This document shows positions 32,314-57,160 of a stretch of DNA of 64,000 nucleotides, one piece after another. The stretch comes from Heterostelium album PN500. Taxonomy: Eukaryota > Evosea > Eumycetozoa > Acytosteliales > Acytosteliaceae. The DNA lies in contig NW_008805067.1 of the NCBI RefSeq assembly GCF_000004825.1, forward strand, positions 186,001-250,000, written 5' to 3'. The number at the start of each line of letters is the position of its first letter. Positions within the stretch are counted from its first letter, which is position 1. The notes beneath the pieces are model-generated. The model saw nothing but the letters and a program-made list of their open reading frames with translations. It made no database searches and was not told the origin of the DNA. The position numbers and the translations under genes were made by a program.

Positions 32314-35300
32314 ATGGATAAATATTGTTATCTATTATTGATATTATTTTTAGTACTATGTCAACTATCATCGACTGACCAGTTGGTGCTGGCGTCGGCA
32401 CCGACTTGTTTGTCGCCGGATGGAACCAGTGTCAATTGGTGGCTAGTCCGAAAACTTCCAAATTCCAATCGTTTTATATATACCGATAGTGTAGCAACTA
32501 ATGTTGTGCTTACTTTCAGTGAGATCAACGCTACCACTTCACCGCTAGCACGTACTCTTCAACAAGCATACACAAGAAAGTACATAATGTTCAACAATGA
32601 GCCATGGCACAACGGAGGTGATTTTCCTCAGAAATATCCTGCAGTAAATCCACAGCCAACTGGAACCTCCTCAGAGGCCAAAGGTATTCTAATATTCCAG
32701 GATCAAACTGTAACCGCCGGTATCCACATTAAACACTCATTGCCAGGATTCCCTCAGCCAACTACTCCCGCCACCTCTAATTCCGGCGGAACTTTCCTCA
32801 TGCCCGGAGCCGACGGATGGTTCCCAACTGACTACCATATCACACCGCCAAACTCAATGTTACAATACGTTCCATCGTATGGACATTCGTTTATGTGTCA
32901 CAAGTACTCATCGTTGCAAGTCGTCTCACAGGCGATCCAGTCGGCACAGCCACTGATTTACGGACACAACATCGAATTCCCTACCACAAACGTCGATATT
33001 AACAATATTTTCAGTGCACCATCGACACCGAATCCACAATCCAAAGAACAGTCAGTGCTGACAACTGAAGGATTCTATTTGAGTGGTGGTACTGGAGTGA
33101 ACTTATGGACACTTATCAACTTCCAACCAACTACCTACATCAACCTACCAGAAAAGGCACCAGTTACAAAGACATCAATCAAACCAGTTTACACTACAAA
33201 GTTACCAATTGATTTCATCGATACCAATTACTATGAAACAACATACTCCACATTTGATTCCGGTTCTGATTTCAGTTTTATTGGTTTCACAACCGACACT
33301 CTATGTCTTGGTGATTATACATTATCAAATGTAAGTTTTAACAAAAAATGATAAAAATATTAGTAATGACAATCTTTTGATTAATTCTAATTAAATTTAT
33401 TGTAGGTTGCAAGAGGTGGAACATTAGTTTGTGTTCAAAGTAATACTCAACCAATCATCTCTTTGTTGACAAGAAGTATTTATACTTATGCTAATTGTGA
33501 TGTCACTGGAACATGTACTTCAGTTACAGTTCCACAAAAGACATTCAGTGGAAAGTTGGCTTATGATCAATCGGTTCCATTCAATTACAACAATGATCAA
33601 CAAGTTAGTATCAATGCCCAATACGACAATTCAATGCCACAAACCTATTTATCGATCTACACCGACAGTGTTTTGCCAATCTGTTCGAGTGAATCGTGTT
33701 GGAATTCAATCTCTGAACGTTATCAATACTCCACTGGTTCAGACTCGACCTTCTCCTTCACCAAGTCAAACGCTGGTGGTAGTTCGAGTTCCGTACATCT
33801 CAAAGTACTTCTCATGGATGCAAAGACTGGTTTGGCAGTGTTGGATAGCAACTCTCAAGTTGTATCGTTCGATGTCGTCGAAGACAATGCCTACACCTAT
33901 AAACTACCGAGAAATGACATTGTTAGCATCTTTAGAATCATGCAAAAGCTGATTGAACAAACACCAAAGTCATCGAATCCCGACTACCCAATCAGCCTCA
34001 GCAATATCAAAATCAAATTGTCTGCCGATCAATCTACTGCAACCATCCAATGGAGTCGTGCAACGATCCAACCAATTACCATTCAAATCAAACCATTCTT
34101 TTGTTATGACACTCTATTCCGTGCATATTCATACTATGTACTTGGACAATACAACATCGTTCAAACACTCCAAGGTTATCTCTACACCGATACCAGTGTT
34201 GATACAGTCTATCCAACCACCGATGAATTCACTCCATTCTTAAAGAGTTTACTCAACGTTTTTGGAATGTCATATAGAAATGTATGTTGTTTAATTGTTT
34301 AAACCATCGATCAACTACTAACCAACTTGTTGTTTATCACTTTTCTCAATAGATTCTATTCCCATCAGTTTCCAATAGATATTATGATCAAGTTTGTGGT
34401 TCAGTTGATATTTTGAATTACAATAAGGGAAGTGAAGTTTATAATAGTGCTATCTACAATGAAGGATACATCACAAAGTTCTTGTGGAATGTATTGAATG
34501 CACCATCCATTAAGAATCCAGGATTGGACCAATCATCACAATCTACTAATTCGCTATCGTTCTTGACCAGTTTGATTGACACCAATCCACAAGTTAGAAG
34601 TATTTTGGACTTCCAAGACTCAATGTATGCGCTGATGAGCGACGATTGGGATACCATCGGTAACAAAATTCAACAGGATACATTCATGGTTCCATCGTGT
34701 CCATTTTGTTCACAAGCTCCATCTCAACATTCGATTCCACTCATCAATATGTTAACACAAGCCGGTGTTTGCAATTCCGATATCACATCGATTCTCATGG
34801 ATACACTCAACAGTTCCGTCAACCTATGGTTTGCCAACGCCTACGGAGATGTCAGCACCAACGTTGCCAAAGACTATTTCTACACACTGTCGAAACCAGA
34901 TTACAATGTCTATTCTATGGTTGATTCCGACTTGTTCAATCACTGGATAGAGATGGACAGCGTTGAGAAGCGTTGTCTCTTTGGTAAGAAGAACGTTGCG
35001 CCTGTTACCCCAGCCGGTATAGTCTACTTAACTGAACTTCTCAATCGTCAAGTTGCACTTGCCACTCAAACCAAATCGTACAATCAAGTCAATACTTATT
35101 TCATACCATCGGTTCTCGACAACACCAACGGTGTAACCATCGTCAAGTATCGTTCATACTTCTGCGCTGCATTCATGAGTACTACTGCAGACTTTAACAG
35201 CGGTGCAGTACTGGCATCGTGTGATGTCGGTCCAATTGTAACTTCTCTCACTTCACCAACCGACTTCATAGGTAGTCCAGCCGGTTTCAATAAAATAACA

Positions 35301-38300
35301 ATCACCGGTCGTAATATCTTGGGAAGTAGTTTACAGGTGAAAGTTGGTAGCTTGGATGCCACCTGCCAAACTGGTTCCACCTCCAACAATGTGCAAACCA
35401 GAACTTGTACAGTTCCAAACAACTATGGTGTTCAACCAATTACAATCAAGTCAACAACAGCCACTCTCAACCAAGCCGATTCAAATCCATTGTGGCGTTT
35501 TAAATTCACTTCACCCAGCGTCCAATCGATCACACCAGCTCTTGCAGCAACAAGTGGAACATCAATGACTGTTAAAGGTACCGATTTCTATGCTATTCCA
35601 GGTGTATCTGGAAATGCTAATTACGGTCCAATTTCCAGTCAGGATTTGTCTCGTTTCAAACTCTTTGTAGCAGGTGTCCAAACACCAATTGTTAGTGGTT
35701 CACACAACTCTGATGGTGACATTATGGTATTCACCTCCAATGGTGTTGGTTTCGATCAATTCGTTCAATTCACTATTGACGACAAAGTTGTATCACTCTC
35801 TGATAGTTCCGCTGTGTTTAGTTACAATAAACCAGTTGTAAACTCAATCACTATCGATCAGAGTGTATCATCCACCAAGAGTTTCCTTCAAATCGACATT
35901 AGAGGAAGTGGATTCGGTCCATCTAATGCCGGCCCAATCTACATTGTCTTGGGAGATCTTCAATGTGGTAACTTGGTTTGGTATGACGACAGCCATCTCA
36001 GTTGTCAAATAGGTCAAGGTGCCGGAAAGGATATTGTAATCAAGGTATACGTCGGTAATCAAGAAGCAACCTACAACACTGACAACAAACTATCGTTCAA
36101 CGTTCCAGTTATTCGTCAAATCGTACATGGTCAACTCAACACTTCTTCGGAATCCTATTTCTACATTGTCGGAACCAATTTTGGAACAAAGTTGGGTGAG
36201 GTTGCCGATGTAAATGTTGACATTTTCGACATCTACTGTGTCATTCCATCACAGGATCTTTCGGACGATGACGACGGATTGGACAACGCCTGTGAATACG
36301 GCCGTGTCTATACCGATGCCAACGGTAACACCATTCCAACACCAACGACTCAACCAGCCAACTACTTTGATCCCTACATCGCAATCGATCCAACATTCCG
36401 TAGCTCCGTCGACTTTGATTGTCTCCAATGCATTTTCCCAGCGGGTGTCGGTGGTAATCTAACGGTTAACCTCACCGCCAGTGGTGTTGCATCGGCTCCA
36501 GCCACAGTCAATCTCTACTACCAACGTCCAAACATCACAGATCTTATCTACTCCAATACCAGTAGCACTACCGGTGGTCAAGTCATTACTCTTCGTGGTA
36601 CCAACTTTGTTCCCAACGAGTTTCTCATCTCTAGAGAAAGAGTTGATTACTCTCTAGCCAACTATCCAAACGAAGTAGTTTATGCACAACAAATCGATTT
36701 ATTCAACAACGGTAAACTTGATGAAGTCTCCTATTGGGAGATCTATGAAAACCCATCCAATATGACTTCAATTGATCTCGGTATTACAGTTTCTAATGTA
36801 TCAATGAATTCCACTTCCAACAATGCTATTCCACTCACCGATATCCAATGGATCAATTCAACAATGATCAGCGCCAAAGTACCACCTGGAATTGGTGCCA
36901 ATTATTCTATAGTCCTATTTGTAGGAGCTCAATTAATGTTGAATCCACTTCGTTCATTTAATTTTTCATATAACGGTATGTTCTTAATTTTGTTGTTTAA
37001 AATTGTTAGATTAATCTAATAATTCTATTATTTATAGCACCAAATATTACTGATTACGTCACCACCAATACAACTGGAGGTAAGATTACAGTGACCGGTA
37101 CCAATTTTGTTCCAGAGGGAGTTAGTCCATTAGGTTCCAATGTAACTATTGATGGTGCCAACTGTACAAACATTGTATGGACCAACGAAACTAGTTTCAC
37201 TTGTAATGTAGCCAAAGGAATTGGAAAAGATCTTCATTTCAATGTCTTTATTGATAATCAAAATCAAACAAAGAAACAATATTTCGCATATTATGGTATG
37301 TACAATCAAATCAAACTATTTTTCCTTAAATTATTTCTAACCATTCAATATAAAATTATAGCACCTGAAATTAAAAATGTTGGTAATTGTTCAACAGTTG
37401 GTGGTAGCGTTACTGCAACTGGATTCAATTTTGTTCCAGAAGGAATTGAGCCAATTCGTTCAAATGTTTCAATTGATAGCAAATTATGTGAGAATGTACA
37501 ATGGAGAGATGATAAAACAATTGTTTTTGATGCCCCACCTGGAATTGGTGTCAATATTAGTTTCACTGTTGTTGTTGGTGGCCAAACTAACAGTACAGTG
37601 TTCAGCTATTTCGCTCCAAAGGTTGATACTGTTACCAAGAGTGATACTCAAGGTACTGGTGTCACCATTAAAGGTGAAAACTTTGTACCACTGAATGTTG
37701 ATGCTGGTACCAAGTCTAATTTAACCATTAACAATCGTTTGTGTACCAATCCAACATGGACTGATGACAAGACCATCGTTTGTCAAGCACCACCAGGAAT
37801 CGGTGTAGATTTGTCACTTGAGGTTTATATCGGTGGACAAAAGGATACTGATCCAAAGAAGTTCACTTATAACAAACCAACTCTTGATAACAAACAATAT
37901 AATGGTGCAACTGCAGGAAGCACCGTCATAACAATCACTGGAGCCAACTTTGTACCGAGTTCAGCCGCTGAGGAAGTCAACAGTAAGCAACCGGATACCA
38001 ACAACACCGTGTCAATTGACGGAAAGAATTGTGAAACCGTTAGATGGGTTGACGACAAGACAGTACAATGCACCATTCCCAAAGGAACCGGTAAAGAAAA
38101 GAACATTAAAGTCATCGTTGGAACTCAAGAGACAGAAGCCAACACCTACTTCTCTTATGACGCTCCAAAGGTTGACAGCATTGAACCAAACAGAGGAAGA
38201 ACTACCGATGTTAAAAATGTCGTTATCAGAGGAAAGAACTTTGGTGAAAATACTACGCCAACCGTCAAGATTGGCGATGGAACATGTACTGTATCCACAA

Positions 38301-41300
38301 GTACAGACACTACCATCAATTGCCAAGTTCCAACTTCAACCACCGACGGTGACAAGTTGGTAAAGGTAACAGTCGACTCCCAAGATTCGACCGACCAAGT
38401 TTTCTACACCTATTATGGTCGTCCACAAATAGATTCAATTAGTCCAACTTCCGGTGCAGTCGATGGTGGATATTCATTGACAATCAATGGTAAGAACTTG
38501 GTTGAGGATAACCATCAACCAACAGTGTACTTTAACAACCAAGAAATCATTCCAAACTCTGTATCAAGCACTCAGATTATTATCCTCGTACAAAGGGGAG
38601 GTGGTCGTTCCATCCCAATATATGTCGTTGTGAACTACAGAGATAGTAATACAAACACCGACTTCTCCTATATTGCACCATCGATTCAATCTATTTCTCC
38701 TGCAAGTGGTGAAGCAGATCAGCCTCACTCGATTGTCATTCAAGGTTCCAATCTTGGTCTGACCATTGACTTACCATCTGTAACAATTGGAGGACATGAT
38801 TGTTCAGGTATACAAGTCACCAGCTCTTCATCGGTCAGTTGTACTGCTCCGGCACTTCCAGAAGGTACAATGTTTGTAGAGTTGACTTTCCATTCCCAAA
38901 AGGCAACCTCAACATTTACCTATGAAAAAGATGACAGTAGTGAAAGTAGCGCAAGTCAAGACGACACCTCTACCACATCTACCACATCTACTACATCTAC
39001 CACATCTACCACTGCCAGTCAAACAGGTGCATCTGGAACTCCATGCATAGGTGTTCCACCCACTGCAGGAACTATAGCTCCAGGTACCGGAGCACAATCA
39101 ACAGGCCCTACAAACCCTACTGCTGGAGCTACAACTGCCGGAGCTACAACTGCCGGAGCAACTGCCGGAGCAACTGCCGGAGCAACTGCCGGAGCAACTG
39201 CCGGAGCAACTGCTGGCGCTACAACAGGGCCAACTGCTGGTGCTACAACAGGTCCCACAACGGGTCCAACTGCTGGTGCTACAACAGGCCCCACAACAGG
39301 TCCTACTGCTGGTGCTACAACAGGACCTACTGCTGGTGCTACAACAGGACCTACTGCTGGTGCTACAACAGCCACTACTGTAGTGGTAACAGTTAATTCA
39401 ACCTCAACTACCTCAAATTCAACTACAGAAGGTGCAACGACAGGTCCTACTACAGGTCCAACTGCTGGTGCTACAACTGGTCCAACTGCTGGAGCAACAA
39501 CTGGTCCAACTGAAGGTGCTACAACTGGTCCTCCAACAGAAGGCGCTACAACTGGTCCAACTGCTGGCTCTACAACTGGTCCAACTGCTGGCGCTACAAC
39601 TGGTCCAACTGAAGGAGCTACAACAGATCCTACTGCAGGTGCTACAACTGGTCCAACTGAAGGTGCTACAACTGGTCCTCCAACAGAAGGCGCTACAACT
39701 GGTCCAACTGCTGGCTCTACAACTGGTCCAACTGCTGGAGCTACAACTGGTCCTCCAACAGAAAGTGCTACAACAGATCCTACTGCAGGAGCTACAACTG
39801 GTCCAACTGAAGGAGCTACAACTGGTCCTCCAACAGAAGGCGCTACAACTGGTCCAACTGCTGGCTCTACAACAGGTCCAACTGAAGGTGCTACAACTGG
39901 TCCTCCAACAGAAGGCGCTACAACTGGTCCAACTGCTGGCTCTACAACTGGTCCAACTGCTGGAGCTACAACTGGTCCAACTGAAGGTGCTACAACAGAT
40001 CCTACTGCTGGAGCTACAACAGATCCTACTGCTGGAGCTACAACTGGTCCAACTGAAGGTGCTACAACTGGTCCTCCAACAGAAGGCGCTACAACAGGTC
40101 CAACTGCTGGAGCAACAACAGGTCCAACTGAAGGTGCTACAACGGGTCCTACAGCAGGAACTACAGCAGCCACGACTTTCGTAATAACAGTTAATTCAAC
40201 TTCAACCACAGCAGGCGATACTGCCACTCCAACTACCGCAGGTAACACCGCATCTCCAACCTCTGTAGGCAACACCGCATCTCAAACCACTGAAGGTTAC
40301 ACCACAGCACTAACCTCTCTAGGTGACACCACAGCACTATCCTCTCTAGGAGATACAACATCTCCAACTACTCTAGGTGACACCACATCACCAATTACAG
40401 TAGGTGCAACTACATCACAAACAACAGTAAGCGATACCTTATCTCCAATTGGTGTAACTACATCGCAAACTACTGCAAGTTCTCCAACAACAGTAGGTGC
40501 AACCACATCACAAACAACAGTAAGCGATACTTTATCTCCAATTGGTGTGACTACCTCACAAACTACAGTGACTGTTCCAACAACAGTAGGTGCAACAACA
40601 TCACAAACGACTGTTGGTGACACCCTATCTCCAATTGGTGTGACTACCTCACAAACTACTGCAAGTTCTCCAACAACAGCAGGTGCAACCACTTCACAAA
40701 CAACAGTAAGCGATACCCTATCTCCAATTGGTGTAACAACATCACAAACTACAGTGACTGTCCCAACAACAGTAGGTGGTACAACATCACAAACAACAGT
40801 AAGTGATACCTTGTCCCCAACTGGTGTGACTACTTCACAAACTACGGTGAGTGCTCCAACAACAGCAGGTGCGACTACATCACAAACTACTGTTAGTGAC
40901 ACCTTATCTCCAATTGGTGTAACTACTTCACAAACTACTGTTACTGTTCCAACAACAGTAGGTGCAACAACATCACAAACTACTGTTAGTGATACCTTGT
41001 CCCCGACTGGTGTAACTACTTCACAAACTACTGTTACTGTTCCAACAACAGTAGGCGCAACTACATCACAAACCACTGTTAGTGACACATTATCTCCAAT
41101 TGGCGTAACTACTTCACAAACTACTTTAATTGACACCACATCACCAATTACAGTAGGTGGTACAACATCACAAACTACTGTAAGCGATACCTTGTCACCG
41201 ACCACTGCAACTACATCGCAAACCACTGTTAGTAATCCAACAACAGTAGGTGCAACAACCTCACAAACTACAGTAAGTGACACCTTATCTCCAATTGGCG

Positions 41301-41797
41301 TAACTACATCACAAACTACAGTGACTGTTCCAACAACAGTAGGTGCAACAACATCACAAACGACTGTTGGTGACACATTATCTCCAGTTGGTGTGACAAC
41401 TTCACAAACTACAGTGAGTGCTCCAACAACAGCAGGTGCAACAACATCACAGACCACTGTTAGTGATACCTTATCTCCAATTGGTGTAACTACATCACAA
41501 GCTCCTGTTACTATTATAACAACAGTAGGCGCAACAACCTCACAAACTACTGGAGATGACACGACATCTCCAATTGGTGTAACTACATCACCAACAACAC
41601 ATACTATTTCCACCGATGCACCGACAGGAGTAAACCCAACGACTACTACAACTCAGGCTAGTACAACTACTATGACTTCCCAAAGTACAATCTCAGGAGA
41701 TGCTTCGTCTTCTGGTGGTTTATTCAACGCACAAACTAATTCCGAGAACGACTCTCCAAGTGTCTTTAGCTTCTTTAAGAAATTGTTCTCCTTCTAA
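32314..41797 (+). CDS. Giant secreted protein: DNase II-like domain, about 12 IPT/TIG domains, Thr-rich mucin repeats
   Basis: Five exons (32314-33330, 33406-34281, 34353-36975, 37038-37295, 37362-41797) join in frame to 3,069 residues. A signal peptide opens the protein (first 27 residues or so). Residues 30-365 resemble DNase II: VNWWLVRKLPN, ARTLQQAYTR, KYIMFNNEPW, SEAKGILIF, IKHSLPGFP, GHSFMCHKYS, and LCLGDYTLSNVARGGTLVCV. The two catalytic His-x-Lys motifs are not there: the first reads Glu121-Ala-Lys123, and the second is replaced by Ser/Asp/Phe. Residues 365-920 are unrecognised. About twelve IPT/TIG domains follow (920-2113), many with TGTNFVPEG-type cores. Thr-rich tandem repeats fill 2115-3040. 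No membrane anchor or GPI signal is seen; the tail ends FFKKLFSF. It is probably a surface or matrix adhesion molecule rather than a nuclease (inference). Confidence 0.85.
39115..40165 (+). repeat. Coding tandem repeat arrays, GATTGPTA/GATTGPTE type
   Basis: Short units of about eight residues (GATTGPTA, GATTGPTE, GATTGPPTE, GSTTGPTA) run in two blocks, 39115-39370 and 39430-40165. Each block ends with a near-identical spacer (ATTVVVTVNSTSTT and ATTFVITVNSTSTT), so the whole array with its spacer was probably duplicated. Thr-rich units suggest dense O-glycosylation. The array should vary in length between strains. Confidence 0.9.
40370..41560 (+). repeat. Coding tandem repeat array, 31-residue period
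   Basis: The unit is about 93 bases: TTSQTTVSDTLSPIGV followed by TTSQTTVTVPTTVGA. It is itself a degenerate dimer of 15-16 residues, and is repeated about twelve times with small variation. It follows the GATTGPT arrays in the same exon and gives the second half of the mucin-like stalk. Confidence 0.9.
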
Positions 41798-41855: not shown

Positions 41856-43751
41856 TTAGTCTCCCATTGCTGATCCTTCTTTTCTCGGATCGGATGCACC
41901 AATGTATGTTTTTGATTTGGTATCGTAAGTAAAACCCTGCATACCTGTTGGTGAGCCAAATTGAAATATCTTTTGTCCAAACTGTTGTTCGAGTTGAGTC
42001 AAGAATGTTTGGTTAAGGTGACCAATCTCAACTGCTGACAGTCCAAATCTATTATCCGATCCAAAGTTAACCATATTGAAACTATCTTGTAATGATATTC
42101 CCCAATTCAATGTAGCAATGATCGATTTACCTAATACCATGGGAATTAAAGGTCCACCTGCAGCACCTATTGACATTACTAACTGACTTCTATTATTATT
42201 ATCATTGTATTTTTTAAAGATTAATGTTGGTGACATTGATGATCTAGGTCGTTTGTTTGGTCTAACCTTATTTGCGAATGAACATTGAGTGTTATCGTCG
42301 TAATATATAAAATTGAAATCTGTCAATTGGTTGTTCAATAGGAATCCTTCGACCATTATGCTCGAACCAAATTCATGCTCAATCGAAGTAGTTAGAGATA
42401 TGGCATTACCATCTCGATCGACAATGGAAATATGTGAGGTACATGGAAACTCATGAGGAGGTTGGTCACCCGATTCCGACTTGTTTACCAACAATTGATC
42501 TCTTGAGAATGATCCCGCTGGTGCTTGTCCCATCGATATATCTTTGATGAGTGATGCTCTTGTCGTCAGGTAATCGGAATCCAGCAGTAAATCCCAATTC
42601 AAATCCATCTCTGCAAGATATCTATTCCGGTCGGCAAAAGCTAGTTTACATGCCTCGGCGAACAGATGCATTGCCCTGGGCGTAGGTTGATATTCGCTCG
42701 GTTGGAAATCATTGAACGCACCAAACGATACGTTGTTTGGTAATTCATTTTCAATCCTCTTGTCTTGAGGCAAACGATCCAATATTCCTAGAATCTGCAG
42801 CAAAACAATGCCTCCCGATTCCGGTGGCGTCGAACATATTTCATAGCTCTGATAGTCTCTACATAGTGGTGTTGTTGTCTTGATTTGATAGTTCTTCAAG
42901 TCATCCAGCTGCATATCTCCAGGGTTGGTAGGATGACTCCTTATTTTATTGACGATCTTGGACGCCAATTCGCCAGTGTAGAAAGCTGCATCGACTCCTC
43001 TCACCGAGATGTCTCGTAGTACTTGAGCCAGCTTGTAATTGTGTAGCGTTTCACCTTCTTTCTTGGGAGAACCATCCTCTTTGTGATAGAAGTGATCTCT
43101 AGAGTCTGGATCTTTCTTGAGATCCGGGTTGGTCTTTATGAGAAACGCTAGTCGGTGGCCAATCGGGAATCCGACCAGACACAGCCTAATAGCCGGCTGG
43201 AAGAGAACGGACCACGGCAGTTGACCATGTTTGCTATGTACGTGCTCCATCAGTTTCAACAAACCAGGTACACCAACGGAACTACCACCAACCAACGCTT
43301 CAGTAAATGACTTTGGTTGGCTAGTTGTCTTGTTGTAAAACAGTGTCTCTGTTGCTCTCCTCGGAGCTGTCTCTCTGCCATCGTAAGAAGTCAACCTCTG
43401 GCTGTAACTGTCGTAATACAATAGGAAAGCACCACCACCGATTCCAGATGATTGTGGCTCCACCAAGTTAAGAACCAATTGTACTGCAATCATAGCATCT
43501 ATTGCATTTCCACCCATATTAATAATATCATAGCCTGCCTTTGTCGCCAGAGGATGTGCAGACACCACCATAAACTCCTTCGACACAAATCTTTCCTTAT
43601 TATACCATCCACTACTCTCCTCTGGTAGCGCTGCTAATTTAGCTTCACCATTCACCTCTAAAACATAGGCAAAAACAAAAAATTGAACTTCATAACAACT
43701 ATATACAAAAAAACATAACAAAATATATATTAAACCATTAAATCGTTGCAT
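41856..43751 (-). CDS. Gamma-glutamyltransferase (glutathione hydrolase)
   Basis: The enzyme cleaves or transfers the gamma-glutamyl group of glutathione outside the cell or in a secretory compartment. It is a single exon of 631 residues from the ATG at 43751. A hydrophobic segment at residues 8-30 acts as signal anchor or signal peptide. MGGNAIDAMIAVQLVLNLVE and SSGIGGGAFLLYY are the large-subunit hallmarks, with the Arg of DGRETAP binding the substrate carboxylate. Self-cleavage should occur before Thr438 in CTSHISIVDRDGNA, producing the small subunit. SLTTSIEHEFGS and PRSSMSPT complete the active site. Its stop is 58 bases from that of the giant gene, so transcripts probably overlap in the 3' ends. 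Confidence 0.95.
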   Translation of the reverse strand: MQRFNGLIYILLCFFVYSCYEVQFFVFAYVLEVNGEAKLAALPEESSGWYNKERFVSKEFMVVSAHPLATKAGYDIINMGGNAIDAMIAVQLVLNLVEPQSSGIGGGAFLLYYDSYSQRLTSYDGRETAPRRATETLFYNKTTSQPKSFTEALVGGSSVGVPGLLKLMEHVHSKHGQLPWSVLFQPAIRLCLVGFPIGHRLAFLIKTNPDLKKDPDSRDHFYHKEDGSPKKEGETLHNYKLAQVLRDISVRGVDAAFYTGELASKIVNKIRSHPTNPGDMQLDDLKNYQIKTTTPLCRDYQSYEICSTPPESGGIVLLQILGILDRLPQDKRIENELPNNVSFGAFNDFQPSEYQPTPRAMHLFAEACKLAFADRNRYLAEMDLNWDLLLDSDYLTTRASLIKDISMGQAPAGSFSRDQLLVNKSESGDQPPHEFPCTSHISIVDRDGNAISLTTSIEHEFGSSIMVEGFLLNNQLTDFNFIYYDDNTQCSFANKVRPNKRPRSSMSPTLIFKKYNDNNNRSQLVMSIGAAGGPLIPMVLGKSIIATLNWGISLQDSFNMVNFGSDNRFGLSAVEIGHLNQTFLTQLEQQFGQKIFQFGSPTGMQGFTYDTKSKTYIGASDPRKEGSAMGD

Positions 43752-52147: not shown

Positions 52148-55100
52148 CTACCACTCTGACGATTTTCTGAGATTTGGTTGTTGTTGTTGATATTGTTGTT
52201 GTTGTTGTTGTTGTTGAGTGTTTGGTACTTGATTACTACTGGATCGAAGTGAATTTGATGTACTGACTCCTAAAGCAGTTGAATCATGATGTCCCATATT
52301 ATTGTTATTAGTAGTAGTGGTTGTAGTTGTTGTAGTTGGTAGTTGATTTTCCAACTCGCGCGATGTTGCCAATCGCAATCTCTCTTTTTCCTTCTTTTCT
52401 TTCTTTTCTTTCTTTTCCTTCTCTTTTTGCTCACGTTTCTCTTCCTTGAGTTTCTCTTTGATTTCCTTCTTCTCTCTGATCCTCTCACGTATATCACGCG
52501 AGATGGTCGAGAGATCCTGCGGCTCTTCGTGGTAGCCGAGTCGGCTCGGCGCACGACTTCCGGTGTTCGAATCGATTGGATTGGTGGTCGCGAGGATCAT
52601 GTCCTCCATGAACTCGTTGAGATCTACATCCTCCTGATTCAGAGTCCTCAACTCCTTGCCAAACATCTTCTCCTCGAAGAAGTGTGGAACTTCGAATCCC
52701 TTGACACCCTCTTTCATTAGCGTCTCTTGAAGTTTGTCGTTGGGATACACCATTGAATCCATCTCGTTGTCGGTGGTGCCTCGCGATGTCATAGTGGTGG
52801 ATTGCGATTTCATCGATGAGGTATCGCTGTCGTGGTGATCCGTCGCCTGGTTGGTGAAAGTTGAGGTCGATCCTCGTCGACTGAGATGCGAACTGTTGAG
52901 TCCGGCTTCAGTGTTGCCGATGCCACTACCGCCATTTGTAACGGGGTCGGAAGAACTTGTATGAAGAGTCGACTCCATTCCACCGCCACTCTCTGTTTCT
53001 TCTTCTCGACGCTTCAGTGCTTCCAATTGTTTCATAAGGTAGTCTTGTGGACGCTGGAATGTCTCGTCGACGCCACTCTCCGACAAAGAGTCGCCGGCGG
53101 TAACACCATTGCCGCCACTGCCATCGGATTCTCCACCGGCATTGGCGACACTCTTCATACTGAGTGGCTGTGATCTGAATCGATTGATAAAACGCCTGCC
53201 TTTCGGAATAATCGATTCCATATGCGGAACACGTGTTCTACTGATTACAGGTGTCTTGTTTTTGTGTTTGGCACGCTTCTTTTGGTAGTAGAAATTGGTA
53301 GTAAAGTTGACTGCCTCAATCAAGAAAGCAACCACCAAGTTCAACACACAGATAACCGTTAGAAAGTAGAAGCTACAAAAGTAGAGAATCGACCATGCAC
53401 TGGTGACAGCGATCGCAGCAAGGAATGTCACCAACCAGTTGTTTACAACCATCAGATTGAACATTGTAATCATGGCAGCACCCATATCCTCGAAATTCGA
53501 AAAATCATAGTAATTACTCTGATCGTAGGTAGTTCCAATCAAGTCAGGATTGCCTCTATAGAACTTGCCATTGTAAATCCACAGCCCAATAATCGAATAA
53601 AAGTAATAAACTATAAAGATAATACCAATAAAGTTAATGAATATAAATACAATTTGTGCAAGTGATTGTAAGAAATGTCTCATTCTAAAAGTAGTAGTTT
53701 TAAACATTATTAAGTTAGTAAGCAAGCATTATCAATTTAGATTATATTAAGAACTAACTCTAACTTTACCTTCTAACTGCAGAAAACAATCTAAATACTC
53801 TTAGATATCGGAATGCACATGCAATTCTTAACATTGTAATGGGATCGCCAACACCTCGTAGTCCGTACTCAACGATTACCTTGCCGAGGAATGAAACCGA
53901 TACGATCGAAAGGTTGAATATCACCCAGAATTTCTTGACGGTACGATATGCTATGATTTTCATTGCTACCTCGACGATCGAGATCGACAGTAGAATCCAA
54001 TCGAGTACCTCTGTCCATGCGGGATAATAGAGATTTCTTGTTCCCACCATGACGTGCGATATCAAAGCGACGTTGACATAGATCGTAAGTACTACGGCTA
54101 CTTCGAACAACGGATGCTTGGTGATACGCTTCAATCTTCCACTCTTCAGGTAGTCGCGAGTATGCGAGTATGCATGTTTATAATGCTCTCGGAGTGATTC
54201 CAGTATGGTTTCATGTGCGTGAGGTTCCACCTTTAGAGTATCGATATCCGTCTCGCTCTTTGCTCGCTTGACAACCGGTGGTTGCACAGGTGTTGTATTC
54301 AAAGGAACATTTGGATGTGAACGGTGCAGTTGTTGTTGTGCTGTTGATCTATTGCTTCGCTCCATAGCAATAACAGATGGTATTCCCATATCGGTGGAAG
54401 CAGTTGATATATGTGACAACTCAATATCACCATTGTCATTATTATCGCTATCTCTATCTCTATGTTCATCTCTATCTCTATCTCTATCCTCTTGCTCATA
54501 TTCATATTCATCGTCACCATCGTAGTCATCATCTTGATATTGAGCAATGGTATGCTCGGATGGTACGGATGGTAGATTCGCCTTTGGTTCGCTTGAAGAT
54601 CGATGTCGCTTGGGTGAAGGTGGTGGAGAACTCTCTGGCGTAGCACGTGGTGTATGCGATGTTATTGCACCTGTCTTGAAGAATTTCGATGCCTTTGCGT
54701 TGTCTTCACCGCCAATAGCAAGATTCTGTAGATCCATATGCGATTCTATTGGCTGTGAAATTTCCTCCTCTAGATCATCCTCACTGTCACTGCTGCTACT
54801 GCTGTTTTCATCGCTATCATGAAACAGATGCTTCTTCGTCAAATACATCTTATTGAGATATGCACGGTTGTGTGCAGTGCTACCACCATACTCACCGGGC
54901 ACATCAAGATTATGAACCTTTGGATTTCTAAACAAATAGCGGTTGGAAACCATTGTTTTTAGATTACCAACGAAATCTTGATCGGTATTCTTAACAGGTT
55001 GTTGTTGATCTTCCTTTGATTGTTGTTGTTGCTGTTGTTGACCATCATTTTGTTGCTGCCTCTGCTGTTGTTGTTGCTGCTGTTGTTGTTGTTGTTGCTG

Positions 55101-56970
55101 TTGCTGTTGCTGTTGATCAGATGTAGATATATTTGAAGTTGGTGATTGTTCAGTTGATGAATTGGCAGCGGACGATGCTCTGATTTGTCTTTGTCTTGCT
55201 TTAAGCTTTCGCTTTGCCAAGTGTTGAACGGTTTTTCGCTCGAGAAGAAAGACGTCGCACATTGCAAAGAACTCACGAACGTTTAGATAACCATTGGCGT
55301 CGGTATCGACCAAGTCAAAAGCAGCAGATGCTTCGTCGGATGTCGATTTCGGTTCCAGTAGCTTGTAGATATGCTCCCACTGATCCAAACCAATAACACC
55401 GGTCTTATCGTGATCCATAATAATAAAAGCAGCCAAAAGCGCAGTACGACGCTTTCTAAAGTTGTTTTTTGTTTCCTTGAGAACCGCTTTTCTAAAACTA
55501 CGATAGACCAGCGCAATCATAAAGTTTATACCAATGAACAGACCCAATCCCAAGTAAACGATAAACAATACCGCATACCATCTACTCTTCCAATACGCTG
55601 GAAACATAATATCAGGAAAGTTTGCTGTTGTAATCAAGATCATTGAATTCAAAAATGATGTTAAAGTTGAATCTATAGATTACAAGTAGAGAGAAAAGAG
55701 AAAGAGAAAGAGATTTAGTATCTTTATAAATATATTTATAGTTATTTTTGTAACGTACTGTAATAATCAGGATCACTTGTTGCACCGTTTGAAAGAATGA
55801 TTGAAAATAGAACGGATCCAATGAAGATGTATGAGAAGAATACTATTGCCACTGGAAACATACGATAGAATGTGTAGATGACTTGCATTGCAAGATCACG
55901 CGTCAGTCGATCGTAGTCAATCATGTAGTAGACACGAAACAATCTAGATACTCGTACACTCACAATTCCATAGTGATTGAGTACGAATGCAACAATGATA
56001 TCGATGTAATTTAGAAACAGTAGTATACCTTTGAACCAATTCCAAGGATTCCTCGTTGCCTGCCGGCCGTATGCATAGTACTTGAAGAAGAGTTCCGCCG
56101 TCAAGATGATAATGAAAACCAGTTCCAGCGGGAGAAGAACCAGTGGTCGATAAGTATCTTTAGTTGGGTGCTCAAAGTATGCAAGTGTGAGCAGACCAAT
56201 GCAAGTGAGTAGCAACAACAATCGGATGGCAGGATAATAGTAGATCTTATATGCTTTCAGCTGTGGGATCTGCAAGAGATGATTGGGATCGCGATAGTTG
56301 ATAGCATCTTGAATCAAAACATAGGCGATAAAGTAACGTCTTGATTTCTCCTCTTCAGTCATTTCCGAAGCCTGAATCGCTTCACCCTGTGAGGTGGCTT
56401 CCAGCACGTAGTCTGCCGCATTTTGGGCTTGCTGCTTTGCTTTTCTATTGATAAACTCTAGATCTTTCTCAACCGCTTCCTTTTCGAGTACCGGAGATTC
56501 AGCCGATGCTATCTCATCACGAAACTTGACAATCTTGAGGGTTGGTGGTCGTTGCCGTCGGAAAGTGGGTGGTGGACGTGCCGGTGGTATGGGCGATGCG
56601 AAAGGCGGTGTCTGGACATTGACATCGATCACATTTTCATCGCTACCGTTTGACGATGGTGAATGATGCCCAATGTCCATATCGGATTTCGTTCGCTTCA
56701 AGTAGCGATGTCTATTGTCACTGCCAACACCACTACTCGACGACTCGATAAACTCCTCCAATCCAATCTTGGTCGGTGAATTCTCATTGTTTGAACCCGG
56801 TGTACTCAGATTGTGAATCGGGTGAAATGCAGGTAGAGTTCTTCGCATCATTGATCTTCGATTCTTCTTGAGATTCTCACGCTCCCTCTGTATCGCTAGA
56901 TCTTCTTCTTCCTCTTGATTACTTCTGGCAACATGATCCAAAGTTGGAGAACTATAAAATAATGTTCTAC

Positions 56971-57040
<70 letters not shown>

Positions 57041-57160
57041 GTTGTTATTGTTATTATTATTATTATTATTTGATGTTGAAGGTGGTGACCAAATAGTTGA
57101 AGTAGGATCCAACTCATCTGGTCTGCTCGGCAAAGAATATTTTCTATGATTCCGAGACAT
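52148..57160 (-). CDS. Two-pore cation channel (TPC) with EF-hands
   Basis: Three exons (57160-55759, 55672-53770, 53684-52148) join in frame to 1,613 residues. There are two six-helix ion-channel repeats. Repeat I starts at about residue 305 and has its pore in ITTANFPDIMFPAYW and S6 in GLFIGINFMIALVY. Between the repeats are two EF-hands (DHDKTGVIGLDQWEHIY and DTDANGYLNVREF), as in plant TPC1, then long Gln-rich and acidic stretches. Repeat II has an Arg-bearing S4 (LRIACAFRYLRVFRLFSAVRR split by the intron) and pore MFNLMVVNNWLVTF. TPCs conduct Na+ or Ca2+ in endolysosomal or vacuolar membranes. The N-terminus has a poly-Asn run of about 45 residues; the C-terminal 350 residues are charged and Gln-rich. 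At about twice the animal size, the extra length is low complexity. Confidence 0.92.
56970..57070 (-). repeat. Poly-asparagine codon run in the TPC N-terminus
   Basis: An almost uninterrupted ATT/TTA-type trinucleotide repeat on the plus strand encodes about 45 Asn (mostly AAT, few AAC) on the minus strand. The poverty of interruptions suggests recent expansion. It is intact as coding sequence. Confidence 0.9.

Follow-up and report, generated by a model that had tools for sequence, protein, structure and literature searches.

A DNase II-like domain without HxK motifs, joined to IPT/TIG repeats in a giant gene of Heterostelium album PN500, and the divided family to which it belongs

Introduction

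To judge from the title of Schafer et al. (2007; cited in PMC9208542 and PMC11430429), pairs of His-x-Lys (HxK) motifs of the phospholipase D type are requisite in human DNase II, and the title of another paper (cited in PMC11430429) names His132 of the porcine enzyme as the third active-site histidine. The present work concerns a gene of the amoeba Heterostelium album PN500 in which a domain of this kind stands at the start of a giant protein. The gene lies on the plus strand of a stretch of 64,000 nucleotides (contig NW_008805067.1, positions 186,001 to 250,000, assembly GCF_000004825.1), hereafter the window, and its product combines: (i) an N-terminal DNase II-like domain; (ii) a middle region; (iii) IPT/TIG domains; and (iv) a Thr-rich stalk. 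The window gene is a member of a large family, its own branch being motif-less yet conserved and the sister branch intact; the function proposed below is read from sequence.

Expanded families of DNase II-like proteins with altered active sites have been described elsewhere. In Trichinella spiralis, according to passages of PMC10249883, such a family is secreted and comprises about 125 members with the active-site histidine replaced, one of which (TsDNase II-7) was assayed and showed no cutting. On the side of the IPT/TIG repeats, the Tgr (Tiger) proteins mediate allorecognition in Dictyostelium discoideum (passages of PMC3188802 and PMC4931340). Moreover, the TIG family OG5_153020 has 9, 43, 35 and 50 members in four species, being larger outside D. 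discoideum (passages of PMC4334915), and 110 IPT/TIG proteins were counted in Polysphondylium pallidum (passages of PMC4931340). The term "deoxyribonuclease II activity" is enriched in common among dictyostelid lineage-specific expansions (passages of PMC8535579), and the sentinel cells of D. discoideum are reported to cast DNA traps against bacteria (passages of PMC4937021). In the open-licence PMC literature, no description was found of a TIG-DNase II fusion or of a split between live and dead branches, which does not by itself show that none exists in print.

Loss of both HxK motifs in a DNase II domain

The spliced domain matches the whole of the PF03265 profile (positions 1-326 of 326; E 1.3e-31; 110.4 bits, the cut-off being 23 bits), and exon 1 alone reaches 95.4 bits (E 5e-27) against the DNase_II profile. 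The original prediction had recognized DNase II from the landmarks ARTLQQAY, FNNEPW, HSLPGFP and RGGTLVC, all of which are present in the translation, and the full-length profile match upholds that recognition. Plain phmmer of exon 1 against the PDB gave nothing related, the two matches returned being to unrelated entries (E 1.2 and 1.9). L009, an ordinary DNase II that this genome also encodes, matches the solved bacterial structure 5i3e at E 3.2e-38, and a profile of 18 own-genome domains matches it at 6.4e-18 across both motif regions, its second stretch being weak alone (0.032); as this profile has the window domain as its first member and includes L009 and intact paralogues, it is no independent proof for the window domain. 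On the full-length profile match and its place in the tree (see below), the window domain is assigned by descent to DNase II (PF03265); the identity of the fold is read from sequence profiles.

The features of the domain that matter for the argument are the following:

32404..33330, plus strand: DNase II-like domain, first part, residues 31-339 (PF03265 match)
32674..32682, plus strand: remnant of HxK motif 1, E121-A122-K123 (aligned with 60 domains from bacteria and the 27 others read from this genome)
33271..33279, plus strand: remnant of HxK motif 2, F320-S321-F322 (alignments)
32725..32736, plus strand: H138-I-K140-H141, a derived H-x-K beside H141 (alignment)
32818..32841, plus strand: dead-branch insert W169-F-P-T-D173-Y-H-I176 (alignment)
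32884..32886, plus strand: H191, in place of the DNase II Gln (alignment)

In total, 28 domains of the genome were read in letters: (i) L009; (ii) 14 domains of dead type (the window domain, L010-L019 and L024-L026); and (iii) 13 domains of HxK type (L020-L023, L027, L028 and L037-L043). The bacterial relatives came from 68 loci, which gave 66 DNase II frames by phmmer, 60 of them (more than 250 residues) being kept. In two alignments, the EAK and FSF of the window domain stand at the positions of HSK and HSK in L009. The Glu-Ala-Lys at residues 121-123 is therefore where it had been placed, and the claimed loss of both motifs holds in the two alignments, neither of which restores them. Both motifs are kept in 59 of the 60 full-length bacterial relatives, the remaining one being gapped at motif 2.

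Across the dead-type rows, motif 1 is lost in 14/14, and motif 2 is lost in the 12 modelled rows and in L018 (DASH, by a separate reading); motif 2 of L019 was not found, and its contig ends soon after. At the motif-2 sites, dead-type rows have K, R, F, A or H for the histidine and Y, F, G or H for the lysine. Among the HxK-type rows, the models of 12 of 13 contain both motifs, and the motif 2 of L023 (DHSK) lies in an open frame outside its model. In that stretch of L023 (6050-6440, minus strand), there is a near-duplicate, NLFIQFKDHSN followed by a stop and then NLFIQFKDHSK. A further fragment, L033, has AHSKG in one frame and TIG in another.

Some of the active site is nevertheless retained. 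The motif-1 lysine (Lys123 in the window domain) is kept in 87 of 87 rows (14 dead-type, 13 HxK-type and 60 bacterial), and the column of H141, equivalent to His132, holds H in 14/14 dead-type, 13/13 HxK-type and 58/60 bacterial rows; in L009, this histidine lies 17 residues past that of motif 1. The core residues W42, Y56, D58 and N94 are mostly identical between the active and dead branches.

Other residues are characteristic of the dead branch, whose members share 31-37% identity with the window domain in alignment A1. They are: (i) W98, present in 14/14 dead-type rows, replaced by G or D in HxK-type rows and found in 0/60 bacterial ones; (ii) W169, P171 and D173 of the insert, present in 14/14 and gapped in 60/60 bacterial rows, the D173 column being mostly gap in HxK-type rows, with D in 2/13; (iii) column 191, which is H in 14/14, Q in 12/13 HxK-type rows (one gap) and Q in 60/60 bacterial rows; and (iv) the H-x-K at 138-140, seen in 12 of 14 dead-type rows, in 0/13 HxK-type rows and in 0/60 bacterial rows. 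His138 is older, since it occurs in 13/13 HxK-type rows as well, so that the new part of 138-140 is the Lys, which L018 and L019 (HIV instead) do not have. As the sole H-x-K of the window domain, HIK 138-140 was considered as a restored motif and rejected, for its place in the alignment is that of the W-L-L preceding the third active-site His of DNase II, and so of neither HxK motif. Derived residues of this kind would befit a fold recruited to a new task more than an enzyme in decay, and a re-made site would also be possible.

A TIG-DNase II family in the same genome

Across the genome, PF03265 gave 65 exon-level matches, grouped by eye into about 48 places, and at least 150 TIG matches were obtained (150 of 729 candidates scored), many of them near the DNase II places. 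Dicty_spore_N had 9 matches in this genome (32.9 Mb, 39 contigs) against none in 14 control genomes, as would suit a dictyostelid. A genome search with the window domain returned 22 rows, 15 of which (itself included) look dead-type, and a search with an HxK-type domain returned 44, mainly of HxK type. The fusion named in the original prediction is real but not singular, since this genome contains a large family of TIG-DNase II genes to which the window gene belongs.

TIGs flank the DNase II domain in all eight giants of dead type (L010-L017), with 7 to 19 matches upstream and 6 to 9 downstream (counted within 10 kilobases (kb), so that the outermost TIGs could belong to neighbouring genes). 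Within the fetched flank, no same-strand upstream TIG was found for the window gene, L018 and L024-L026, which places their DNase II domain near the N-terminus. L019, at the end of a small contig, has no TIG on its strand. L018 and L019 (contig C23) are 97% identical within the domain. Single uninterrupted frames with TIGs, middle region and DNase II exist: L010 (2421 residues) holds 13 TIG stretches and a DNase II domain, and L012 (2108 residues) holds 11 together with that domain.

The HxK-type loci with long flanks have TIGs both upstream and downstream in 6/6 cases. Altogether, TIGs lie near DNase II in 12 of the 13 HxK-type paralogues, six by letters and six by coordinates, with none listed for L038. 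The coordinate-based part concerns L037-L043, domain pieces of 1.3-1.5 kb of which 6/7 have a listed same-strand TIG within a few kb, among the scored TIG candidates.

On the 3' side of the dead-type domain there is a common order, namely the middle region (about 540 residues), three TIGs, a spacer, a long TIG and more TIGs. The exon 3 part of the window middle region matches the dead-branch paralogues (6.7e-18; also alignment A2), and a search with the L010 middle region returned 22 rows, all at or beside dead-type loci except C3:124675. In Pfam, the L010 copy of this region had no match, nor did alignment A2 in the PDB. The copy at C3:124675 consists of middle region and TIGs, with no listed DNase II match; C3:11109-17530 and C3:124675-128671 have equal or near-equal match scores, which suggests one dead-type locus copied at two places of C3. 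Downstream of an L024-type locus, L044 (C15:506500-507000) has 165 open residues and no Pfam match at E 1; its stretch KGRLFEDKNQNMKFDGDDTPI may resemble Cna_B or colossin repeats.

Tree of the family

The tree was built from the 28 own-genome domains and 30 bacterial ones (every second of the 60), after both HxK motifs, three columns apiece, had been taken out. L009 apart, the 27 paralogues form one clade (support 100/97) beside it, with the bacteria outside. This clade is split into the 13 HxK rows (100/96) and the 14 dead rows, the window domain included (100/99), and the same split is recovered without bacteria (98/98). The tree is to be taken with some caution, given that several branches are long (among them those of L009 and the window domain), that the program warned of long branches and of letter make-up, and that a single ordinary DNase II is present. 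The simplest reading would be one joining of DNase II to TIG, followed by one loss of both HxK motifs; the family would have expanded within this amoeba lineage. A bacterial origin of the fusion was considered and discarded, as no frame in the 68 bacterial loci matched the amoeba-tuned TIG profile at E 0.1.

Constraint on the dead branch

The ratio of nonsynonymous to synonymous substitution rates (dN/dS) was obtained for 12 dead pairs, ten of which lie at 0.17-0.38; the other two reach 0.53 and 0.82, with a synonymous rate (dS) of just 0.02 and 0.01. The four HxK pairs gave 0.22, 0.23, 0.44 and 1.05. When the DNase II domain is compared with the part upstream of it, it has fewer differences in L016/L017, L012/L013 and L024/L025, not in L024/L026, the upstream stretches of the L024 pairs being short and at least partly non-coding. 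In two of three recent dead-branch sets, the divergence lies in the upstream TIG arrays. The dead DNase II domain does not stand out as the best-conserved part of its gene, since it is level with the downstream part.

The one recent HxK pair, L020/L027, behaves differently, in that 64 of 1375 bases differ in its domain, a larger share than upstream (56/2637, p 1.4e-5) or downstream (73/3004, p 1.6e-4). The two loci are 97.25% identical over 7 kb, and the domain (L020 3952-5326) contrasts with 129/5641 elsewhere, with dN/dS about 1.05. Diversifying selection on this intact nuclease domain is possible.

In the comparison of L011 (4708-9909) with L012, the long alignment begins only at the start of the DNase II domain and has long runs of 97-99.6% identity with stretches of 69-90% between them, a pattern read as exchange of modules, or gene conversion, close to the boundary of the domain.

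Layout of the window gene and its neighbours

The gene and its product are laid out as follows, all on the plus strand:

32314..41797, plus strand: window gene, ATG at 32314, stop ending at 41797, five exons, one frame of 3069 amino acids
32314..33330, plus strand: exon 1 (open frame, GT donor at 33331)
33406..34281, plus strand: exon 2 (splice sites); residues 340-370 (33406-33498) complete the DNase II-like domain
34353..36975, plus strand: exon 3 (splice sites)
37038..37295, plus strand: exon 4 (splice sites, TIG profile), carrying one TIG domain
37362..41797, plus strand: exon 5, stop included (splice site and stop)
33331-33405, 34282-34352, 36976-37037 and 37296-37361, plus strand: introns (GT..AG joins)
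32314..32400, plus strand: likely signal peptide, about residues 1-29 (hydrophobic run YLLLILFLVLCQL)
33499..35225, plus strand: middle region, residues 371 to about 923, intron 34282-34352 inside (common to dead-branch paralogues)
35226..38926, plus strand: 11 IPT/TIG domains, to about residue 2113 (Pfam TIG and own TIG profile)
38927..41707, plus strand: Thr/Ser/Pro-rich mucin-like stalk of ~930 amino acids (composition, tandem repeats)
41708..41794, plus strand: short hydrophilic C-terminus ending SVFSFFKKLFSF (hydropathy of the last windows -0.6 to -0.3)

The gene coordinates are exactly those first proposed. The splice joins are predicted introns, four in number, of 75, 71, 62 and 66 base pairs, all GT..AG, and the spliced frame of 9.2 kb is open throughout. 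Pfam TIG matched two large open frames, with four stretches in one (3.3e-17) and seven in the other (8e-56), and the own TIG profile gave 12 rows on L035 that correspond to 11 domains (two rows being pieces of one long domain). Consequently, of the "about twelve" IPT/TIG domains originally proposed, the fusion stands and the count becomes 11. The Thr-rich stalk had been correctly described, having 340 Thr in 947 residues; its tandem periods include 24, 48, 75 and 93 bases, and the whole protein contains 30 N-glycosylation sequons.

The run YLLLILFLVLCQL has the top 19-residue hydropathy of the whole protein, and the signal peptide was assigned by eye from it. Judged by hydropathy, no membrane segment is present (maximum 19-residue value outside the signal peptide, 1.55) and no classical hydrophobic glycosylphosphatidylinositol (GPI) tail is seen at the C-terminus. 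A signal-like N-terminus without a membrane segment suggests a soluble or matrix protein, and we infer that the protein is secreted.

Downstream lies a convergent gamma-glutamyltranspeptidase gene (41856-43751, minus strand; PF01019, 2.5e-129), whose end at 41856 is some 60 bases away from the window gene's stop codon and leaves little space for a further 3' exon. Opposite the Thr-rich repeats, the minus strand has open frames of 418 and 438 codons (39019-40275 and 40297-41613), which look like by-products of in-frame tandem repeats. Farther away, at 52148-57160 on the minus strand, three adjoining open frames have Ion_trans matches, one of them also EF-hand, and are possibly one calcium-channel-like gene split by introns.

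Proposed role and alternative explanations

The preferred reading, to which somewhat better than even weight is given, is that the window gene would encode a protein of adhesion or of the matrix, secreted and non-nucleolytic, in which the DNase II fold serves to bind a conserved ligand. As a secreted member of the pseudoenzyme branch of the TIG-DNase II family, it would carry the DNase II fold at its tip as a non-cutting, ligand-binding module; the domain is itself inferred to be non-cutting from the loss of its motifs. A polyanion, be it a nucleic acid or not, would be the most plausible ligand; extracellular DNA and a phosphate polymer of bacterial or matrix origin are examples. That it is DNA in nature is a tentative guess, on which one would rather not bet, made because the active fold binds DNA and because D. 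discoideum sentinel cells are reported to cast DNA traps. Arrays of TIG domains and O-glycosylatable repeats are typical extended spacers; here, the TIG array and the glycosylatable Thr-rich stalk might project the tip from an extracellular layer or anchor it there.

In favour of this reading stand the full-length profile match with both HxK motifs lost, although L009 and 59 of 60 bacterial relatives keep them; the inactivity of TsDNase II-7; the grouping of the dead domains in a single clade; the mostly low dN/dS of dead pairs; Lys123 and His141, conserved throughout the dead branch; and the N-glycosylation sequons together with the Thr-rich stalk. Several points weigh against it. (i) The domain is level with the downstream part in 4/4 recent dead comparisons (p 0.79, 0.88, 0.22 and 0.30), the parts compared outside the domain including introns and flanks, and hence its constraint is not special to it. 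(ii) The closest paralogue of the window gene is at most 38% identical, and constraint on the window gene is derived from that on its branch. (iii) L010 retains the motif-2 His (HSH), though not its Lys. (iv) Loss of HxK is no proof that all activity is lost, and the dead branch conserves His and Asp residues of its own. (v) The retained Lys and His may serve folding only.

Among the alternatives, the one that survives best, although it seems unlikely, is kin or self recognition of the Tgr kind, with the DNase II-like tip as a variable self-tag on a TIG stalk. The original prediction had mentioned kin recognition among the possible roles. TIG repeats are shared with the allorecognition Tgr proteins, the family is large and clustered, and in L020/L027 it is precisely the domain that has diverged, with the high dN/dS given above. 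Nevertheless, in the four dead-branch comparisons, the variability of the domain does not exceed that of the part downstream, middle region and TIGs (p 0.22 to 0.88), the upstream TIGs varying instead in two of three sets, and the dN/dS values of dead pairs are mostly well under 1; in addition, the window protein has no transmembrane segment, whereas transmembrane is part of what Tiger means. Kin recognition by the DNase II domain is thus unsupported as it had been put forward. The dead-branch comparisons speak for a conserved ligand more than for a hypervariable self-tag, while the single recent intact pair, L020/L027, shows the opposite; a variable tip for kin recognition would suit that pair more than the dead branch.

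A broader proposal, more doubtful than kin recognition, is that of a re-tooled dead branch, in which the new K140, H191 and D173 around Lys123 and His141 would form a new binding or catalytic site, and the ancestral fusion would have split into cutters and binders for extracellular DNA (amoebal nets, bacterial biofilm).

It is improbable, to a slightly greater degree, that the domain is a structural relic which folds and caps the protein with no particular binding. The core residues W42, Y56, D58 and N94 are in keeping with such a relic, being mostly unchanged between branches, as is the fact that conservation of the domain merely equals that of the downstream half. Conservation in 14/14 rows of W98, of the W169-P171-D173 insert and of H191 is, however, something that a passive cap does not need.

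More improbable still is a remodelled enzyme in which Lys123, His138, Lys140, His141, Asp173 and His191 make up a new site, leaving the domain active on a substrate of some kind. All six are invariant or almost so across dead-branch lineages as distant from the window domain as stated above, and the domain is under purifying selection; on the other hand, K140 is missing from L018 and L019, nothing conserved equals the second HxK, and His138, found in all intact rows too, is not specific to the dead branch.

Finally, that two adjoining genes, or a pseudogene, have been read as one is very improbable: the joins do depend on predicted introns, but all four are canonical and the spliced frame is open, and a gene-fusion artefact was rejected because L010 and L012 each have a single frame that runs through TIGs, DNase II and middle region and the middle region of the window gene matches theirs.

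With regard to the significance of the preferred reading, that of a non-cutting, ligand-binding DNase II fold, three aspects can be differentiated: (i) if the pattern is general, part of the "deoxyribonuclease II activity" annotation would be wrong, as one branch looks dead and its sister intact; (ii) the split between live and dead branches offers a clean natural experiment on the passage from nuclease to binding module; and (iii) the family supplies candidates for sorting the binders of extracellular DNA from its cutters in organisms reported to cast DNA traps against bacteria.

Comparison with known systems

With the DNase II family (human DNASE2, 5i3e of Burkholderia thailandensis), the window protein shares the full-length profile, a likely secretory signal, the His132-equivalent and the lysine of the first HxK motif. 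It differs from that family in that both catalytic HxK motifs are missing and a middle region, 11 TIG domains and a mucin-like stalk are added.

The likeness to the DNase II-like proteins of Trichinella, compared by description and with no claim of descent, lies in an expanded, secreted family with the active-site His replaced. According to the passages of PMC10249883, the classical site is missing from every Trichinella member, while in the present genome dead and intact branches occur side by side; those same passages make no mention of a fusion to TIG domains or to a stalk.

The Tgr proteins have in common with the window protein their IPT/TIG repeats, the large size of the family and, presumably, the extracellular location. 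They are named as transmembrane proteins (passages of PMC3188802), unlike the window protein, which has no membrane segment, and the passages of PMC3188802 and PMC4931340 do not mention a DNase II domain in them.

The intact paralogues of the same genome form the sister clade and, like the window gene, have DNase II near TIGs (12 of 13); they differ in that they keep both HxK motifs and, in the six loci with long flanks, have TIGs ahead of the DNase II domain as well.

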